A stretch of DNA of 33,829 nucleotides from Bacillota bacterium (GTDB taxonomy: Bacteria > Bacillota > Sulfobacillia > Sulfobacillales > JAIMBI01), in contig JAJYPH010000017.1 of assembly GCA_021795575.1 (NCBI GenBank), positions 1-33,829 on the forward strand, read 5' to 3'. The notes under the pieces were generated by a model. That model was not told the DNA's origin and ran no database searches. It saw nothing but the letters and a program-made list of their open reading frames with translations. Positions 2-30,707 of this stretch are shown here, piece after piece (position 1 is the first letter of the stretch; each line of letters opens with the position of its first letter). The position numbers and the translations under genes were made by a program.

Positions 2-742
2 TCCGGCGGCATCTTGTCCGGCTTCCCCACCGAGCCATCGAAGCCGTGCGCGTTTGGCGGCCCGGTGCCAGGGATGGCTGCCGTCATCCTGGACGAGGCC
101 GGGAACCCGGCTTCCCCCGGCACCGTGGGCGAACTGGCCCTCACGGCGCCGTGGCCGGGCATGACGCGCGGGTTCTGGAAGGATCCGGCGCGCTATGAAG
201 ACACGTATTGGTCGCGCGTTCCGGACACCTGGGTGCATGGCGACTTTGCCGTGGTGGACCCCGACGGCTTCTGGTACATACTGGGGCGCAGTGACGATAC
301 CATTAAGATGGCGGGCAAGCGCCTGGGCCCGGCCGAAGCCGAGGGGGCGCTGGCCGCGCATTCCGCCGTACGGGAAGCGGCCGCCATCGGGGTGCCGCAT
401 CCCGTCAAAGGTGAGGTGCTGGTCTTGTTCTGTGTGCTGCACGCGGGCCACGCTTGGGACGACCGGCTGGAAGCGGAGCTGTCCGCCACGGTGGCGGGCC
501 ACCTGGGCAAGGCGCTGAAGCCCGACCGCATCCACGCCGTCACGGAATTGCCGAAAACCCGCAACGGCAAGGTGGTGCGGCGCGCGCTCAGAGCCGCGTA
601 TCTGGGACGGGACCCCGGCGACGTGTCCGCCATCGAGAACTTGGGCGCGCTCGACGCCGTCGGCCGGCTGAAGCCGGATGACGGCGCCCGGCAGGTCTCA
701 CTCGATGGGGGGAACCCCGTCGGGGGCGGGGTCGGGGGTTGA
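2..742 (+). CDS. AMP-forming acyl-CoA/acetyl-CoA synthetase, C-terminal part (5' end outside window)
   Basis: This is the C-terminal 246 residues or so of an adenylate-forming acyl-CoA ligase, which activates acetate or another short acid with ATP and CoA. The reading frame is open from base 2, so the true start lies upstream. Family landmarks are visible. GELALTAPWPGMTRGFWKDP and the later HGDFAVVDPDGFWYILGRSDD match the core motifs around the adenylate-binding Asp. IKMAGKRLGPAE is the hinge (A8) motif. PKTRNGKVVRR is the A10 motif, whose Lys is the catalytic lysine of the adenylation step. The layout resembles Acs-type enzymes, but the acid substrate cannot be read from this fragment. The tail is glycine-rich, and the last 45 bases overlap the end of the convergent MFS gene. 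An Etf system elsewhere in the window makes a role in acid catabolism plausible; that is inference. Confidence 0.9.
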   Translation, partial: SGGILSGFPTEPSKPCAFGGPVPGMAAVILDEAGNPASPGTVGELALTAPWPGMTRGFWKDPARYEDTYWSRVPDTWVHGDFAVVDPDGFWYILGRSDDTIKMAGKRLGPAEAEGALAAHSAVREAAAIGVPHPVKGEVLVLFCVLHAGHAWDDRLEAELSATVAGHLGKALKPDRIHAVTELPKTRNGKVVRRALRAAYLGRDPGDVSAIENLGALDAVGRLKPDDGARQVSLDGGNPVGGGVGG

Positions 743-2008
743 GGGAAGCAATGTCATGAGCGGGCGGCTGCGGAGCAGCAGCAGGCCAGAGAGCGCCATC
801 CAGATGCCGCCCGCGGCCATAATGACGCCTGCGCCCGCCGTGGTGGCGAGGATTCCGCCGACCAGCGCGGTCGCCGGCGCCGCGGCACCCTCGATGGTCC
901 CCAGGAGGCCAAACGTGCGGCCCATGAGCGCGGGAGGGACCGACGCCTGAAACAGGGCATTGAACGCGGCGCCGCCCAGCGTCTGCCCAAACCCGGCCAG
1001 GGCGTACAGCCCCAGGGAGAGGAGGAGCACGTGCGAGAAGCCCAAGGCCGCCATGGCGCACCCCGCCATGGCGGTCGTGGCCAGCATGAGGGGAGCCATG
1101 GCGATCCGACGCGTGGCCCACGCCGTGACCAGCCCCCCGGGGACACTGCCCACGACGGCGCCGGCCTCCACCAATCCCAAGGCCGCCGGTCCCCCCGGCA
1201 GGTTCCGGAACACGACCACAGGCAGCAAGGCCAGCACCGCTCCGCCGCCCATGGTCCCCACACCGGCCCACAGGGCAAGCGTTTTGAGAGCGGGCTCTAG
1301 CCCGATGCCTGCCCAGCCCTCCCGGAGCTCTTGCACAAATTGGCGCTTGGGCGGGTCCCGATCTGTGAGTGACGGGGGGGCGGACGCCGGTGCGAAACGG
1401 AGCATGGCCAGCGCCGCCACCGCCAACACGAACGACCCCACGTCAATGAACCCGCTCACCACCGCGCCCACCGCGGCCACCACGACCCCGCCCACCGACG
1501 CGGCGAAAAAGCCGTTGGCGGACCCCACGGACTGGTACAAGCCGTTGCCCGCGGCCAGCTGGTCGCGGGGCAGGATGCGGCTCATGACGCTGTGAAAGGC
1601 GGGCCGCTCCATCATCGCGGCCGCCGTCAGGGCAAACAGGGCGGCATAAATTGCCCACACGCCCAGCACGTGACGGAAGGCCAGCACCGCCGTCAGCAGC
1701 ACCACGCCGGTGCTCACCACGTTCACGCCCATCAGGGTGCGCCGCCGATCCCAGCGGTCCACGTACACGCCGACGGCGGGGCCGGACAGGGCGACCCCGA
1801 GCCGCTGAGCGACCGAGACGGCCGCCGTGCCCAGTGCGGAGTGGGTGTCCTGGTACACAAACCAGACCAGCGCGATGGAGAAGATGGCATCGCCCCAGCT
1901 GGAGAGATTCTGGCCCACCAAGAGCGTGAGGTAGTTGCGGCTCCGCAGTGGAGCCCAAGGGGAAGCGGGGTCAGGCGTGGATAGTTTTGGGGTGCGGTCG
2001 ATTCCCAT
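698..2008 (-). CDS. MFS transporter, drug-exporter type (MFS_3/DHA3-like)
   Basis: This is a 436-residue membrane protein of the major facilitator superfamily with about 12 hydrophobic segments. The N-terminal part (RSRNYLTLLVGQNLSSWGDA, then a first-loop motif like GVYVDRWDRRRTLMG) is typical of the MFS_3 group that includes macrolide and multidrug exporters. The conserved loop 2-3 motif G-x-x-x-D-R-x-D-R-R is intact. I chose the ATG at 2008, not a longer reading to 2056, because a GGGAGG ribosome binding site lies six bases ahead of it. The gene follows the sigma-factor gene by 54 bases and may be cotranscribed with it. A hairpin at 2015-2046 overlaps part of its ribosome binding site, so translation could be regulated. 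The substrate is unknown. Confidence 0.85.
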   Translation of the reverse strand: MGIDRTPKLSTPDPASPWAPLRSRNYLTLLVGQNLSSWGDAIFSIALVWFVYQDTHSALGTAAVSVAQRLGVALSGPAVGVYVDRWDRRRTLMGVNVVSTGVVLLTAVLAFRHVLGVWAIYAALFALTAAAMMERPAFHSVMSRILPRDQLAAGNGLYQSVGSANGFFAASVGGVVVAAVGAVVSGFIDVGSFVLAVAALAMLRFAPASAPPSLTDRDPPKRQFVQELREGWAGIGLEPALKTLALWAGVGTMGGGAVLALLPVVVFRNLPGGPAALGLVEAGAVVGSVPGGLVTAWATRRIAMAPLMLATTAMAGCAMAALGFSHVLLLSLGLYALAGFGQTLGGAAFNALFQASVPPALMGRTFGLLGTIEGAAAPATALVGGILATTAGAGVIMAAGGIWMALSGLLLLRSRPLMTLLPSTPDPAPDGVPPIE

Positions 2009-2014
2009 GGCGCC

Positions 2015-2046
2015 TCCCGATGGCGTGTTTAACCGCCATATCGGGA
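2015..2046 (-). promoter_or_regulatory. Hairpin overlapping the MFS ribosome binding site
   Basis: On the minus strand, TCCCGATATGGCG pairs with CGCCATCGGGA across an 8-base loop, with a two-base bulge. The 3' arm includes GGGA of the GGGAGG ribosome binding site of the MFS gene, so folding would partly hide that site. It lies in the 54-base gap after the sigma-factor stop codon and lacks a T-run, so it is not an ordinary terminator. Regulation of translation is inferred from position alone. Confidence 0.4.
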
Positions 2047-2062
2047 ACGCCCGCAAAAAGGT

Positions 2063-3187
2063 TCAAACAACGTGCGCGTACACCACCGGTGCACGCGGCA
2101 GCGCCGCGCAGTCGCGCCACACCAGGACCGTGCGGCCGTGAACGCGGCTCGCATGGTGCGGTGGGGGGGTGGCCTGCTGAACGATCAGGGTGGGGGGCAG
2201 TTCGATTACCGTGGTGCCGCTCCCCCCGTCGTGGTAAGAGATGTCCGTCCGCAGCTGAACCTGGTGTCGTCCAGATTCCAGGGCGCCCACGTGTTCGGCA
2301 TCGGCCGCGCTGCCGTGCGTGCTGACGCGGAAAGCGGACCCGTCCCGCGGATACAGGTCGTAGGTCCACAAAGGGGCATCTACCGACACGGTGCGTCGGA
2401 CGCGGCCCAGGAGACTTTCTCCGCGTACACTCCGGAGTTGGGTGATAGGGCCGAAGTCCGCGCGGGAGCAGCCGTAGGCACGCGACATTTGCGACTGCCG
2501 CCGCCAGGGGAAGTGGCAGCGGGCATCCAGTGACAAGCCCAGCGCGCTGTCCCACGTGAAGTACGTCAGCTGGAACGGCGCATCGGGGTCAGTCACGGAC
2601 GCCAACAGGTGCCAGCCCGCGCGGTCGCGTTGGCAACTGGGGCACGGCGGGATGCCCCACAAGTCGCTGCGAGCGTGGCTACACGCTCTGTCACCGCTGC
2701 GGGCCTCCTGGTACCACTCGTGGAGGTGGCGCCGAAGTGCCTGACTCTGATAGTGCAGGCGCGACTTGATCGTACCCACAGGCAACCCAAAGTGACGAGC
2801 CAGATCCGCGAGGGTCCAGTCGTCGACGACCCGCCGCCACAGCAGGCTCCCCGGTACGACGCCGCTTCGCTGCAACAGATGGCTCGTGAAGTCAGGGTCA
2901 CCGGCCCCGTCTGGAGCCCCGGTCCACGGACCGGGCGCGCTCGCCGCGCGGTGCCAGTCGGCCGCGCGGCGATCCGCCAGCGTGCGCAGGAACGCCCGCC
3001 GGTGCCCCTCGTCGCGGTAGTGGACCCCCGCGGCCCAAAACGAGGCCCAAACCTCCTGCAGGACGTCCTCGACCGCGTCGGCCGGGACTCGCTCGCCTAC
3101 GTGCCTTGCGAGCCAGGGACCCTCGTCGTGCAGGAGTTGGCCCCAGTCATGTTGGTTCACGGCGTCTTCGCCGGTCGGTGGTGACAT
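2063..3187 (-). CDS. ECF-type sigma-70 factor with long C-terminal extension
   Basis: This 374-residue protein starts as an extracytoplasmic-function sigma factor. Region 2 is seen around residues 15-82 (AVEDVLQEVWASFW, then RAFLRTLADRRAADWHR), which would bind core RNA polymerase and the -10 element. Region 4 is at 120-155 (WTLADLARHFGLPVGTIKSR), the helix-turn-helix for the -35 element. A plain ECF factor ends near residue 170-190. Here about 210 further residues follow, opening with a cysteine pair (CPSC, 182-185, with Cys169 nearby) and continuing as a beta-rich domain I do not recognise. The ATG at 3187 has a strong GGGGGAGG site five bases upstream. No anti-sigma gene is adjacent, so the extension may be the sensory or self-inhibitory part (inference). 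The downstream MFS gene is a candidate target. Confidence 0.8.
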   Translation of the reverse strand: MSPPTGEDAVNQHDWGQLLHDEGPWLARHVGERVPADAVEDVLQEVWASFWAAGVHYRDEGHRRAFLRTLADRRAADWHRAASAPGPWTGAPDGAGDPDFTSHLLQRSGVVPGSLLWRRVVDDWTLADLARHFGLPVGTIKSRLHYQSQALRRHLHEWYQEARSGDRACSHARSDLWGIPPCPSCQRDRAGWHLLASVTDPDAPFQLTYFTWDSALGLSLDARCHFPWRRQSQMSRAYGCSRADFGPITQLRSVRGESLLGRVRRTVSVDAPLWTYDLYPRDGSAFRVSTHGSAADAEHVGALESGRHQVQLRTDISYHDGGSGTTVIELPPTLIVQQATPPPHHASRVHGRTVLVWRDCAALPRAPVVYAHVV

Positions 3188-3248: not shown

Positions 3249-3686
3249 TCAGCTGGCGGCGACCGTCACCTCACGCATGTGGTCGCCAGCCCGCACCGCG
3301 TCCACGATGTCAAGTCCCTCGATCACCTGGCCAAACACCGTGTGCTTGCCGTCCAGGTGGGGCTGGGGACTGTGGCAGATGAAAAACTGCGATCCTCCGG
3401 TGTCCTTGCCGGCGTGGGCCATCGAGAGGCTGCCCCGCACGTGCTTGTGGGGATTGCCGGCCGTTTCGCACTTGATGGTGTAGCCGGGACCGCCGGTGCC
3501 GTCACCCTTCGGGCACCCGCCCTGAATCACAAAGTTGGGAATCACCCGGTGAAACGTCAGCCCGTTGTAAAAGCCGGACTCCGCCAGCTTGGTGAAGTTG
3601 GCCACCGTGCCGGGCGCTTCCGCGGGGAACAGCTCCAGCACAATATCGCCTTTGTCGGTCGCCATATGGACAGTAGGATTGGCCAT
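3249..3686 (-). CDS. ppiB: Cyclophilin-type peptidyl-prolyl cis-trans isomerase
   Basis: This is a complete 145-residue single-domain cyclophilin, which catalyses cis-trans isomerisation of X-Pro bonds during protein folding. There is no signal peptide, so it should be cytoplasmic. The active-site block [13 protein letters not shown] holds the catalytic Arg plus the Phe and Gln of the substrate pocket. [18 protein letters not shown] supplies the second half of the site, with His where human cyclophilin A has Trp, as in many bacterial members. The ATG has an AAAGGAG site about nine bases upstream. It precedes the sigma-factor gene by 61 bases in the same direction and may share a transcript with it. 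Confidence 0.95.
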
Positions 3687-4060: not shown

Positions 4061-4474
4061 TTACAACGGCTCTTCCGGAGATTGCGCACCCCGGTTCAGC
4101 ATCTTCTGGTCAAAGGTGTAGACCCGATGCTGTGGCAGATGACTCAACAGGACGCAGTCGGCCCAGTCCAACCCGCCCGCGGAAAACAGCTGCAGGGCGT
4201 CCAAGGTCGCCTGCCGGTCCACGATGTCGAGACCGTCCAATTGCAGAAACTGCAACAGCTCCTCGGCCACCGCGCGCCGCGTGAGACCGAGTCCTTGTGG
4301 CGACCCCGCGACATACACGACCTCAGACAGCACAACCGGATGGACGGCCAGGCGAACCACCCCACGCCGTGCTGCGTCGAAGAGCTGTTCGGCGGCGTCC
4401 GCCTGCTCGGGCGGCCACCCTTGGAGAAATCGCAAGATGACGTTGGCATCCACGAAGGCGGTGCCTCCACCCAT
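4061..4474 (-). CDS. PIN-domain ribonuclease toxin, VapC-like
   Basis: This 137-residue protein is a PIN-domain nuclease, the toxin class that cleaves RNA (often tRNA or rRNA) with Mg2+ or Mn2+. The acidic residues of the fold are present: Asp9 in FVDANVILRFL, Glu51 in VLSEVVYV, Asp103/Asp106 in GLDWADCVLL, and Asp122 in TFDQKM. It starts with the ATG directly after the stop codon of the AbrB-like gene (TAG then ATG, no gap). That is the standard antitoxin-then-toxin order and implies coupled translation. The site looks complete, so the protein is probably active. The RNA target is unknown. Confidence 0.9.
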   Translation of the reverse strand: MGGGTAFVDANVILRFLQGWPPEQADAAEQLFDAARRGVVRLAVHPVVLSEVVYVAGSPQGLGLTRRAVAEELLQFLQLDGLDIVDRQATLDALQLFSAGGLDWADCVLLSHLPQHRVYTFDQKMLNRGAQSPEEPL

Positions 4475-4729
4475 CTAGTCTTCCTCCCGGTAGCGCGTGG
4501 CCCAGTCGCTGGCTCGCTGCTGGCGCAAGGGAGCCAAATCGTCTACAGGCACTTCGGTGCGCCACACGCCTTTGAAGCTGGACAGTGGTCGCTGCCGGAT
4601 GGGCGTCAGCACAATGCCGTCTCCACGGAGTTCGAATCCCACGTGGTCTCCAGGTTCCAGGTGGGCTGCCTCCCGAATGGCTTGAGGGATGCTAATCTGA
4701 CCCTTTGAACTCAGCTTTGCGATCTGCAT
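4475..4729 (-). CDS. AbrB/MazE-type antitoxin of the PIN toxin
   Basis: This 84-residue protein begins with a SpoVT-AbrB swapped-hairpin DNA-binding domain (about residues 4-45). AKLSSKGQISIPQAIREAAH and LEPGDHVGFEL match the family pattern closely. The C-terminal 40 residues (charged, with Trp) would wrap and block the PIN toxin encoded just downstream. Such antitoxins usually repress their own promoter with the toxin as corepressor. The ATG has a GGAGGTAAGG site, and an extended -10 lies a few bases further upstream. The pair looks intact, unlike the MNT/HEPN pair at 17 kb. Confidence 0.9.
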   Translation of the reverse strand: MQIAKLSSKGQISIPQAIREAAHLEPGDHVGFELRGDGIVLTPIRQRPLSSFKGVWRTEVPVDDLAPLRQQRASDWATRYREED

Positions 4730-4862: not shown

Positions 4863-6134
4863 CTACTGGTGTTGGAACGACACCTGGATCAGGTCGGCGG
4901 CTCCGATGCTCGTGGAAGACGGGGCGTACCCGGGTTTAAGGGCAAACACCAGCACCAGATTGTTTCCCTGGGGCACCAGGGTCTCGCTGGTGGCCCAGTT
5001 GCACGTGACCGGCCGCGTTTGGTTGGTGGGAAAGCTCCCCGCGGACGTGTCGACGAGCGTTGCCCGGAATGTGGATGGCGAGCCCGGGGTGACATACGGG
5101 TCCCAGTAGGTGTTGGGGGTGGTTCCGTGCGTCGTGGTGATGATGAGGGCGTTGGCGGTCACCGTGAGCTGCTCCAGTGTCAGGGAAGGGATGGCGTGGC
5201 TGGCTCCCCCCGATATTGGGTAGGGGCGCAGCGACACGGCCATCCCCCGAGCCGACCTGATGCGCGGCGTGGCGGCCGTGCCATCGGTTGTCGTGGCGTA
5301 CACCCGGGTTCCGTCCTGCCAGGCGACGGTGGTTAGGACCTGGGTGGCCGACGGCGTCCCCGTGATGGCCACGCGGACGGTGCCCTGTTCATCGGGTACG
5401 GGGAGAAAGTGCTGGTGCAGGCAGGCCGCCACCGTGTTTGCCGCAGCGGTCGGATCCTGTTGGCCGTTGACCGAGCTGCTGATGGCAATGGCCCAGCGCC
5501 CCTCTTGCCAGGAAACCACCGCGGTCGGCAGCACGGCCGGCAGCCGCAGCGACGCGGTAATGCCGGCGGTGAGGGGGAGCGGCTGGGCCGTCAGGGAGGA
5601 CCACTCCCCGGCGTGATACTGGCTCACCGTCTGAAGCACTCCCGTGGCGGCGGCGGGGGACGGCTCCTGCCATCCCGCGTAGGAGCCCACCAGCGTGCCC
5701 ACCTGGCCCGGTGCGCTGTTGACCGGCAGGGCGCGCTTCCCCTGGCAGAGATCGACGCTGTACATGGGTGCGGCGGAGAAGGTGCCAGCATTGAGCACCT
5801 GGCCGCCCGACGTCGCGGGAACAGTGGTGGGCGCTTCGACGAAGGACGCGTAGCCGGATCCTAACGTCGCCATGGCGCTGGCGACGACAGAAGGGAAGGC
5901 GGCAGCCGGCGGCGTCGCCGCCGTCGTGGCACGAGAAGTGCCCTAGTTGGGTGTGGATGTCCGGTGGGCTTGGGCAGGGCTGGTCTGAGCCCGCAGCGCG
6001 GGATGCCTCACCGGGGTGCCGCGTGCAGCGGGTGTGGCGGCCCCGCAACCCGCCAGGAACACCACGCTGGCAGCCCCTACGCAAGCCACCTGTTCTCTCA
6101 GGTGGGCACCGCAGTTGGCTCTTCCACGTGTCAT
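4863..6134 (-). pseudogene. Lipoprotein gene interrupted by an in-frame TAG
   Basis: Read from the ATG at 6134 (GAGGAGG site seven bases upstream), the first 63 codons give a lipoprotein signal peptide. It has a hydrophobic stretch followed by FLAGCG, with the lipidated Cys at residue 30, and then a Thr/Pro/Ala-rich linker. The frame then meets TAG at 5943-5945. It continues open in the same frame for 359 more codons: first the same kind of linker (GTSRATTAATPPAAAF), then a Ser/Thr-rich extracytoplasmic domain ending at 4863. I do not recognise that domain. No ribosome binding site precedes the internal ATG at 5873, so independent translation of the rest is unlikely, and without the signal it would stay inside the cell. 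The natural terminal stop is also TAG, which argues against amber recoding. A recent nonsense mutation, or a base error, is the simplest reading. Confidence 0.75.
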
Positions 6135-29249: not shown

Positions 29250-30707
29250 TTGAGCGACGCCGTCACGCCGGCCCCCGACCGCGGGGCCGTGTCCGCTCGG
29301 CTCCGGCAGCTGCCGCAGGTGCACCGGCTGGCGGACAGCCTGCCCCACCCCATCCCCGCTGTGTACCGCGTAGCCGCCAGCCAGGCGGTGCTGGACCGCG
29401 CGCGGCGGGCGCTGCGTCAATCCGCGGATCCGGCCGCGGCCCGGGTGGCCCAGCTGGCCGACGATGCGGCGGCCCTGGCTGCGCGACTGGCATCCCCCCA
29501 CCTGGCCCGGGTGATCAACGGCACGGGCGTGATTCTCCACACCAACCTGGGGCGGGCGCCACTGGCGGACGCGGCGTTGGCGCACGTCGAACGCGTGGCG
29601 CGTGGCTACTCGACTCTGGAGTGGGACCCAGAGACCGGGCGCCGCGGGTCGCGCATGAGCCATCTTGACGAGGTGCTGCCCGCCCTCACGGGCGCCGAGG
29701 CGGCGATGGCCGTCAACAACAACGCGGGGGCAGTCCTGCTGGCGCTGTTCACGCTGGCCGCGGGGCGTTCCGTGATCGTGTCCCGCGGCCAGTTGGTGGA
29801 GATTGGCGGCGCGTTTCGGATTCCCGATGTGATGCGGGTGAGCGGTGCTCGCCTGGTGGAGGTGGGCACCACTAACAAGACCCGGTGCTCTGACTACGCG
29901 TCGGCCATTGTGCCTGGCGAGACGGCGCTCTTGTTGCACGTCCACCCGTCGAACTTTCGGCAGACCGGCTTTGTGGAGAGTGTGGCGCCGGGCGAGCTGG
30001 CGGCGCTGGGTCGGGAGGCGGGGGTGCCCGTCATGGCGGACCTGGGGTCGGGGGTGTTGTTCCCCCTCACCCGGGGAGGCGCCCAGGAGCCGGCGGTGCG
30101 GGACGTGGTGGCCGCCGGCGTGGACGTCACGACCTTCTCAGGTGATAAGCTGTTGGGCGGGCCCCAGGCGGGCCTGATTGTGGGGCGGGCAGAGTTGGTG
30201 GGAGCCATGCGCCGTCACCCTTTGGCGCGCGCGCTGCGCCTGGACAAGATGACGCTGGCCGCCTTGGAGGTGACGCTCCGGTTGTACCGCGAGGGACGTC
30301 AGGACGAGATCCCGCTCTGGCGGATGCTCTCCCAGTCGGAGGATACCCTGACCCAGCGGGCCCGACGTCTCAGGCGGCTGGTGATGCGCCAATTGGGTGG
30401 CGTGCCCGGTGTGCAGCTGGCCGTACGGCGCACGACCGCCCCCGTGGGCGGCGGCTCGCTGCCCGAGGTGATGTCCGCGACGGCCGTGCTGGCGGTGCGG
30501 TCGGCGCACCTGTCCGCCGAGGCGCTGGAGGCGCGGCTCCGCGCGGGAACGCCGGCCATGGCCGTGCGAGTGGCGGAGGACGCCGTGTGGGTGGATTTGC
30601 GCACGGTGGCGCCGGCCGAAGAACGCGAGGCGGCGGGATGTGTCGCCCGGGCGCTGGCGGGACCTGAGTTCCGGTGGCCAGGCACGGAGGAGCCACGCCA
30701 TATATAG
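29250..30707 (+). CDS. selA: L-seryl-tRNA(Sec) selenium transferase
   Basis: This 485-residue PLP enzyme converts seryl-tRNA(Sec) to selenocysteinyl-tRNA(Sec) using selenophosphate. INGTGVILHTNLGRAPL (89-105), GYSTLEWDPETGRRGSRMSH and VNNNAGAVLLAL are family blocks. Lys300 in TTFSGDKLLGGPQAG forms the PLP Schiff base, close to E. coli Lys295. The start is TTG 29250, one base after the small upstream gene, with no strong ribosome binding site of its own. In many genomes selA is beside selB and selC; neither is in this window. Its presence implies the organism makes selenoproteins. Confidence 0.95.
   Translation: MSDAVTPAPDRGAVSARLRQLPQVHRLADSLPHPIPAVYRVAASQAVLDRARRALRQSADPAAARVAQLADDAAALAARLASPHLARVINGTGVILHTNLGRAPLADAALAHVERVARGYSTLEWDPETGRRGSRMSHLDEVLPALTGAEAAMAVNNNAGAVLLALFTLAAGRSVIVSRGQLVEIGGAFRIPDVMRVSGARLVEVGTTNKTRCSDYASAIVPGETALLLHVHPSNFRQTGFVESVAPGELAALGREAGVPVMADLGSGVLFPLTRGGAQEPAVRDVVAAGVDVTTFSGDKLLGGPQAGLIVGRAELVGAMRRHPLARALRLDKMTLAALEVTLRLYREGRQDEIPLWRMLSQSEDTLTQRARRLRRLVMRQLGGVPGVQLAVRRTTAPVGGGSLPEVMSATAVLAVRSAHLSAEALEARLRAGTPAMAVRVAEDAVWVDLRTVAPAEEREAAGCVARALAGPEFRWPGTEEPRHI

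Follow-up and report, generated by a model that had tools for sequence, protein, structure and literature searches.

The window (i.e., the whole stretch of DNA analysed, 33,829 nucleotides in length) carries, on the minus strand, a gene for an ECF sigma factor with a fused C-terminal extension, flanked upstream by ppiB and downstream by a gene for an MFS exporter. The features considered here are as follows:

698..2008, minus strand: MFS exporter gene, the presumed target (ATG at 2008; Shine-Dalgarno GGGAGG at 2013-2018)
2015..2046, minus strand: inverted repeat running from the -10 element to the MFS Shine-Dalgarno, which may act as an operator or, in read-through RNA, form a hairpin
2041..2064, minus strand: putative ECF-type promoter for the MFS gene (GAACCTTTT-N12-CGA), which overlaps the stop codon of the sigma gene
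2063-3187, minus strand: ECF sigma gene with fused extension (374 aa)
2066..2587, minus strand: predicted C-terminal all-beta, saddle-like domain, residues 201-374 (AlphaFold, VIA-align)
2633..2683, minus strand: predicted zinc-type site (C169-x-H171-x10-C182-x2-C185; sequence pattern) within the linker that follows region 4
2699..3187, minus strand: ECF sigma core, regions 2 and 4, residues 1-163 (Pfam, AlphaFold helices)
3249..3686, minus strand: ppiB, upstream neighbour of the sigma gene (Pro_isomerase, 158.8 bits)

On profile evidence, the 374-residue product is an ECF (group IV) sigma factor with a C-terminal extension of approx. 210 residues. Pfam Sigma70_r2 matched residues 24-83 of the window sigma with 24.1 bits (cut-off 24), while region 4 (residues 116-152) reached 20.3 bits at best, below the Pfam cut-off of 25.7; the AlphaFold model placed the helices of the core at residues 6-82 and 100-163. 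Region 2 was stronger in relatives (e.g., 41.1 bits in L039), and region 4 scored over the cut-off in L076, L077 and L078 (54.4, 43 and 49.7 bits, respectively). No anti-sigma gene was found between or beside the sigma gene and its neighbours ppiB and the MFS gene. The first-pass annotation, made from the window alone, had described an ECF sigma factor with an extension of this size and with no anti-sigma gene next door, and the reading frame, the region 2 match and the gene layout bear it out on both counts; the span it had given (2063-2690) covers the extension, whereas the whole gene extends to 3187. Because the start of the sigma gene lies 61 nt past ppiB, read-through from ppiB into the sigma gene is possible; elsewhere, ppiB was the neighbour only in L032 and L033. 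No plasmid match was found that would point to a plasmid origin. Other parts of the window hold a PIN-domain gene (4061-4729, minus strand) with a MazE-type gene directly upstream, likely a toxin-antitoxin pair, a 336-residue ORF (4866-5873, minus strand) that had no Pfam match at E <= 0.001, and selA (L-seryl-tRNA selenium transferase; 29250-30707, plus strand; 444 bits). Apart from tRNA-Val, the window has no tRNA gene, and other selenocysteine genes would thus lie elsewhere.

Residues 165-374 alone had no Pfam or NCBIfam match at E <= 1, and a search of solved structures by sequence profile with the extension also gave no match at E <= 1. Profile searches identified the extension in 18 loci from 14 of the 154 genomes of the class, with a weak match (E 0.0027) in G121 beyond these 18 loci; the four genomes of the genus carry two extension-bearing loci each. 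The extension thus matched no known domain and is conserved in relatives, the two points on which the first-pass annotation had made its reading depend. In a sample of the phylum, 1 of 398 genomes matched, which was the window's own genome (up to 7 candidates were scored per genome). The G121 match aside, the extension was found in the class only fused to an ECF sigma or, in G002, overlapping one. We observed purifying selection on the extension: of the 8 pairs compared, all had a dN/dS of 0.19-0.39 except L039/L040, in which a dN/dS of 0.75 at a dS of just 0.02 is little informative. Because of this recurrence and of the purifying selection, the extension is, as judged from its sequence, a conserved domain and not a chance ORF tail, and the profile searches support a domain without a curated family.

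By similarity the loci fell into four groups, i.e., group A (window, L032-L037), group B (L038-L041), group C (L043, L044, L079) and group D (L076-L078); L042, in which the gene is broken, was left out of the grouping. Extension identity between distant groups was as low as 14-20%, and group C was tied weakly to the rest when its members were withheld from training and the extension was scored by itself (E 0.0003 to 6, assuming 1000 targets and spanning both start points). The window's own genome contains a second sigma-MFS pair (G000:C284, L039 2741-5231), whose sigma protein is 35% identical to the window sigma and whose MFS protein belongs to a different group. L032, L034 and L042 each carry a single frameshift in the MFS gene, and further single frameshifts affect the L042 sigma gene and the L077 extension. 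In L042 the sigma and the extension lie in two ORFs that overlap by 10 nt. As all these frameshifts may represent assembly faults or real decay, we do not claim a natural sigma/anti-sigma split.

The CxxC pair near a third Cys at the start of the extension, which the first-pass annotation had pointed out as a possible zinc site, is indeed there (C182 and C185; C169). Inspection found the pattern C-x-H-x10-C-x2-C in all seven group A proteins, although AlphaFold confidence was low over this Cys/His linker. The group B linker keeps the CxxC, group D (L076, L077, L078) shows C-x25-H-x3-C-x2-C at the same linker place, and in group C (L043, L044, L079; 3 of 17 proteins) the whole Cys motif is missing. 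Because these three members lack the Cys pair, zinc cannot, on the sequence patterns, be a requirement throughout the family. The group D linker (3 of 17 proteins) fits the CHCC form of the zinc anti-sigma (ZAS) motif as defined in the accessible part of PMC4960319, when the signature is taken as H-x3-C-x2-C preceded, at a distance of 23-26 residues, by a Cys or His; the window protein, in which the histidine is elsewhere, fails it. A zf-HC2 match in L076 and L077 was below the Pfam cut-off (15.1 vs. 22.2 bits). It seems reasonable to infer that the linker descended from a ZAS anti-sigma domain and has since shrunk or been lost.

AlphaFold predicted the part that follows as an all-beta domain (extension model with pLDDT 80.8 and pTM 0.78). 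In Foldseek and VIA-align comparisons, the model of residues 201-374 aligned with ribophorin I (Z up to 13.1), with 4g2a (Z 11.0) and with the N-terminal domains of M1 aminopeptidases (Z 10.1-10.9), over 147-166 residues at 3.1-3.8 A and with a sequence identity of 4-14%. Given this identity, the likeness of the modelled domain to ribophorin I and to the M1 N-terminal domain is one of fold, not of function. There was also no sequence match between the Peptidase M1 N-terminal family and the extension, either in Pfam or among solved structures at E <= 1. Hydropathy analysis found no transmembrane segment in any of the 17 extensions (peak 19-residue hydropathy of 0.63-1.49, as compared to 2.19 for an MFS protein control).

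In all 18 extension-sigma loci, the first assigned gene after the sigma gene encodes an MFS protein and has the same orientation. The gap between the sigma and MFS genes is 54-175 nt in 15 of the 18 loci, and longer in L043 (642 nt, holding an unassigned 65-codon ORF), L044 (236 nt) and L077 (312 nt). Downstream MFS profile matches were absent from all 38 ECF loci used as a control; in this set, which was given as 39 loci and from which L015 was dropped as it is family member L079, L019 was without a sigma by profile, several controls represent the same place twice and the flanks were mostly just 1.5 kb. Controls L066 and L069/L083 had an MFS match upstream, not downstream; in L083 (1890-4692, minus strand) the control ECF sigma lies just 3' of an ORF with a weak MFS-profile match. 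The MFS proteins of the extension-sigma loci matched Pfam MFS_3 or MFS_1 (MFS_3 with 93.9 bits for the window protein) and are most likely small-molecule exporters. Their nearest named NCBIfam models were TIGR00900, Mef(A), Tap and EntS, all below cut-offs; for the window protein, TIGR00900 and Mef(A) matched, both below the curated cut-offs. Identity between the MFS proteins of different loci ranged from 19 to 82% (closest pair excluded), and the MFS protein differs by group.

On reading the sigma-MFS gaps, we found the same element to recur, i.e., GAACCTTTT, 12 nt and CGA. A motif scan of 618,918 strand-bases in 25 regions (L031 omitted as a duplicate of L034) yielded 16 matches to GAACYTT-N14-CGA, all in sigma-MFS gaps and representing 16 of the 18 loci, and 15 matches to GAACYTTT-N13-CGA, again all in these gaps; at spacers of 8-12 or 14-21, GAACYTTT and CGA gave no match in the 25 regions. 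Shuffles of 17 gap regions gave an expectation of 0.009 matches. L044 keeps GAAC-N17-CGA with a weaker -35, and L079 has only a variant with a 16-nt spacer. The usual ECF promoter, according to the accessible sections of PMC3426412, has AAC at -35 and CGT at -10; the window promoter has the AAC-type -35 (GAAC-N17-CGA) but CGA, not CGT, at -10. Two loci, L036 (1720-1896) and L037 (2888-3046), have a short ORF of approx. 33-39 codons after the promoter; it stops where the MFS gene starts, an arrangement suggestive of translational coupling.

The promoter is nearly unique in its genome, as the 3.68-Mb sequence contains two exact cores, each before an MFS gene beside one of the paralogous sigma genes. 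The four genomes of the genus together hold 9 exact sites, all but one of them in sigma-MFS gaps, and in genomes without the family, inspection found the pattern matches scattered and similar in number to the reversed control. Two conserved-looking sites, in G100 and G101, were dropped, as they lie inside a NUDIX-like reading frame with no MFS gene after it. The motif was absent from up to 400 nt upstream of all 18 sigma genes (317 nt for L076), and autoregulation of the sigma was therefore rejected. No exact site was found before ppiB in the whole-genome scan either; the motif shared by the upstream regions of ppiB and the sigma gene that the first-pass annotation had suggested looking for thus did not materialize. 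Its proposal of the adjacent MFS gene as the target, on the other hand, gained support from the strong promoter in 16 of the 18 gaps and from the two exact genome sites, and the MFS exporter is very probably the direct target of the adjacent sigma. The pairing of sigma and promoter rests on position and uniqueness, from which the sigma would be expected to read this promoter.

We consider it likely that the protein is a single-chain sigma/regulator dedicated to one exporter, with gating and sensing by the extension. Because the sigma genes have no ECF site upstream and no anti-sigma gene nearby, control is probably post-translational. The sigma would be made without an ECF promoter of its own, in this genus possibly via ppiB read-through, and the soluble extension, composed of a shrunken-ZAS-like linker and an M1-N-like saddle domain, would control the sigma core in the cytoplasm. 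By analogy with ECF41, the linker or the saddle would hold the core until a cue arrives; this cue would most simply be the compound removed by the neighbouring exporter, sensed by the saddle domain. Once the cue meets the extension, the sigma core would become active and transcribe from the one promoter at its own stop codon, which would drive the MFS exporter. A bolder version, in which the pair resembles a TetR-exporter pair, the saddle itself binds the exported compound in the cytoplasm and thereby frees the sigma, the regulon consists of one promoter and this promoter sits within the 5' arm of a leader hairpin, so that the ribosome-binding site is masked in read-through RNA and only the sigma-started RNA is translatable, appears doubtful in its entirety.

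The main rival to an inhibitory extension is an extension that is needed for activity, i.e., an activating or positioning domain without which the sigma is dead and through which binding of a ligand or partner turns it on; we regard this as possible, though on the unlikely side. Ecf41Bli lacking its whole extension is inactive according to the accessible part of PMC3426412, the ECF42 extension is described as essential in the part of the review PMC8999054 available to us, and between them these two sources indicate that ECF41 and ECF42 depend on parts of their extensions for activity. The ZAS-like part is, moreover, degenerate or lost in many members of the present family. However, the CHCC ZAS signature in L076-L078 points to inhibitor ancestry.

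We consider it unlikely that the sigma has a wider regulon or responds to another stress (e.g., thiol or metal), with the exporter as one of several targets. ECF sigmas often tolerate divergent sites, and eight further sites with one mismatch are present in the window's own genome. This number, however, is at background (the reversed pattern, used as a control, matched 13 times when up to one mismatch was allowed), and there are just two exact sites, one per paralogous sigma.

In group A an inverted repeat spans the region from the -10 to the Shine-Dalgarno, and its stem sequences differ among members; a DNA alignment of seven leaders did not line up the repeat arms, hence no covariation count was obtained. 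When leaders were folded from an assumed transcription start (L079 omitted), the predicted masking of the ribosome-binding site in read-through as compared to promoter-started RNA differed by a mean of 4.6 kcal/mol, vs. 1.5 kcal/mol in shuffled sequences; in this set, a poor Shine-Dalgarno was chosen for L039 and L040, and the start used for L036 and L037 was that of the small ORF before the MFS gene. L044 was the one leader of the 17 with masking under its shuffled mean, and the other 16 lay above theirs. At most 5 of 100 shuffles reached the observed masking for 6 of the 17 leaders and more than 20 did so for 7, while fold z-scores were <= -2 in 5 of 17. The value for the window's leader decreased from 11.5 to 7.8 kcal/mol when 150 nt of upstream sequence were included, and L078 showed masking near zero for two assumed starts. 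Overall, these predictions suggest that read-through RNA may mask the exporter ribosome-binding site and that promoter-started RNA would not; the hairpin is supported in sum but unevenly, and we treat it as secondary. The same repeat could instead be the DNA operator of a separate repressor, i.e., a second, classical regulator, as it overlaps the -10 and the start region with both arms matching in group A leaders. We find this improbable, as no repressor gene was seen in the sigma-MFS pair, as the G-T mismatches in several arms (L032, L037) correspond to G-U pairs in RNA, and as the masking lies over the shuffled mean in nearly all leaders.

Sigma, extension and MFS distances were correlated (Mantel r 0.85-0.94 for 15 of the 18 loci, i.e., without L032, L034 and L042, which have frameshifted MFS genes; co-evolution and common descent are not separated by this measure), as expected from simple co-inheritance. 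It is nevertheless very unlikely that the pair was simply passed down as linked genes within a single clade and that the gap motif is a terminator or a relic of codon usage and not a promoter, as the GAAC-17-CGA core and its spacing are fixed across the groups with the most diverged extensions and as the motif lies in non-coding DNA past the stop codon in most loci.

Many extended ECF sigmas are without a known signal or target, and 15 extension-bearing ECF groups are listed as unstudied in the accessible part of the review PMC8999054; here, a probable target can be read from the sequence. With one promoter and one exporter, gating of a sigma by a fused domain would be testable with a single reporter, and a sigma with a private promoter could be put to use as an orthogonal switch.

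Among known systems, ECF41 (Ecf41Bli, Ecf41Rsp), as far as described in the available sections of PMC3426412, is alike in having a fused soluble C-terminal regulator, no anti-sigma gene and a single target gene next door that has its own dedicated promoter. The ECF41 extension, however, is SnoaL-like, whereas the window protein has a predicted M1-N-like saddle and residues 165-374 gave no Pfam match to a SnoaL-like domain at E <= 1. The target of ECF41 is a COE enzyme, as compared to an MFS exporter at the window locus, and its -35 is TGTCACA with a spacer of 16 +/- 1 nt, as compared to GAAC(C) and 17 nt; its promoter often precedes the sigma gene too, a position in which none was found in the extension family. 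With the ZAS anti-sigmas ChrR and RsrA, as presented in the accessible part of PMC4960319, the family shares the CHCC-type signature in three distant members and, with ChrR, the arrangement in which a beta sensor domain (cupin-like in ChrR) comes after the ZAS part. The module at the window locus differs from both in being fused to the sigma and much shortened, with a predicted saddle-like rather than cupin beta domain. This predicted saddle fold is shared with the M1 aminopeptidase N-terminal domain and ribophorin I (Ost1), but the window protein, unlike M1 aminopeptidases, has no peptidase domain.

ECF48, ECF52 and ECF53 also combine a sigma and a zinc-finger anti-sigma-like part in one chain (PMC8999054, in part), but have one or two transmembrane helices, whereas none are predicted in the extensions of the window family. 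ECF238 (CorE) is alike in having a Cys-bearing C-terminal extension that might bind metal; it carries a CXC motif in the sigma2-sigma4 linker, whereas the window sigma has none there (its first Cys is C169) and has an extension of approx. 210 residues with a large predicted beta domain. ECF42 has a TPR-rich extension, as compared to an extension without Pfam match that is predicted to be all-beta. The accessible part of PMC7730460 names an MFS gene among the ECF56 targets, with neither the fusion nor the pairing seen in the window family. The extension types named in the available part of the review PMC8999054 are SnoaL, TPR, Cys-rich and ZAS with membrane helices, with no type there that combines a ZAS-like linker and a saddle fold, and our literature search found no paper on such a sigma-MFS pair or on this pairing of linker and saddle domain. 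We set the family apart from the numbered ECF groups on the basis of this portion of the review, and it may have an existing 2021 group number. By analogy, the best reading is that the window protein would work like ECF41 or like a fused ChrR-type pair while being a member of neither.
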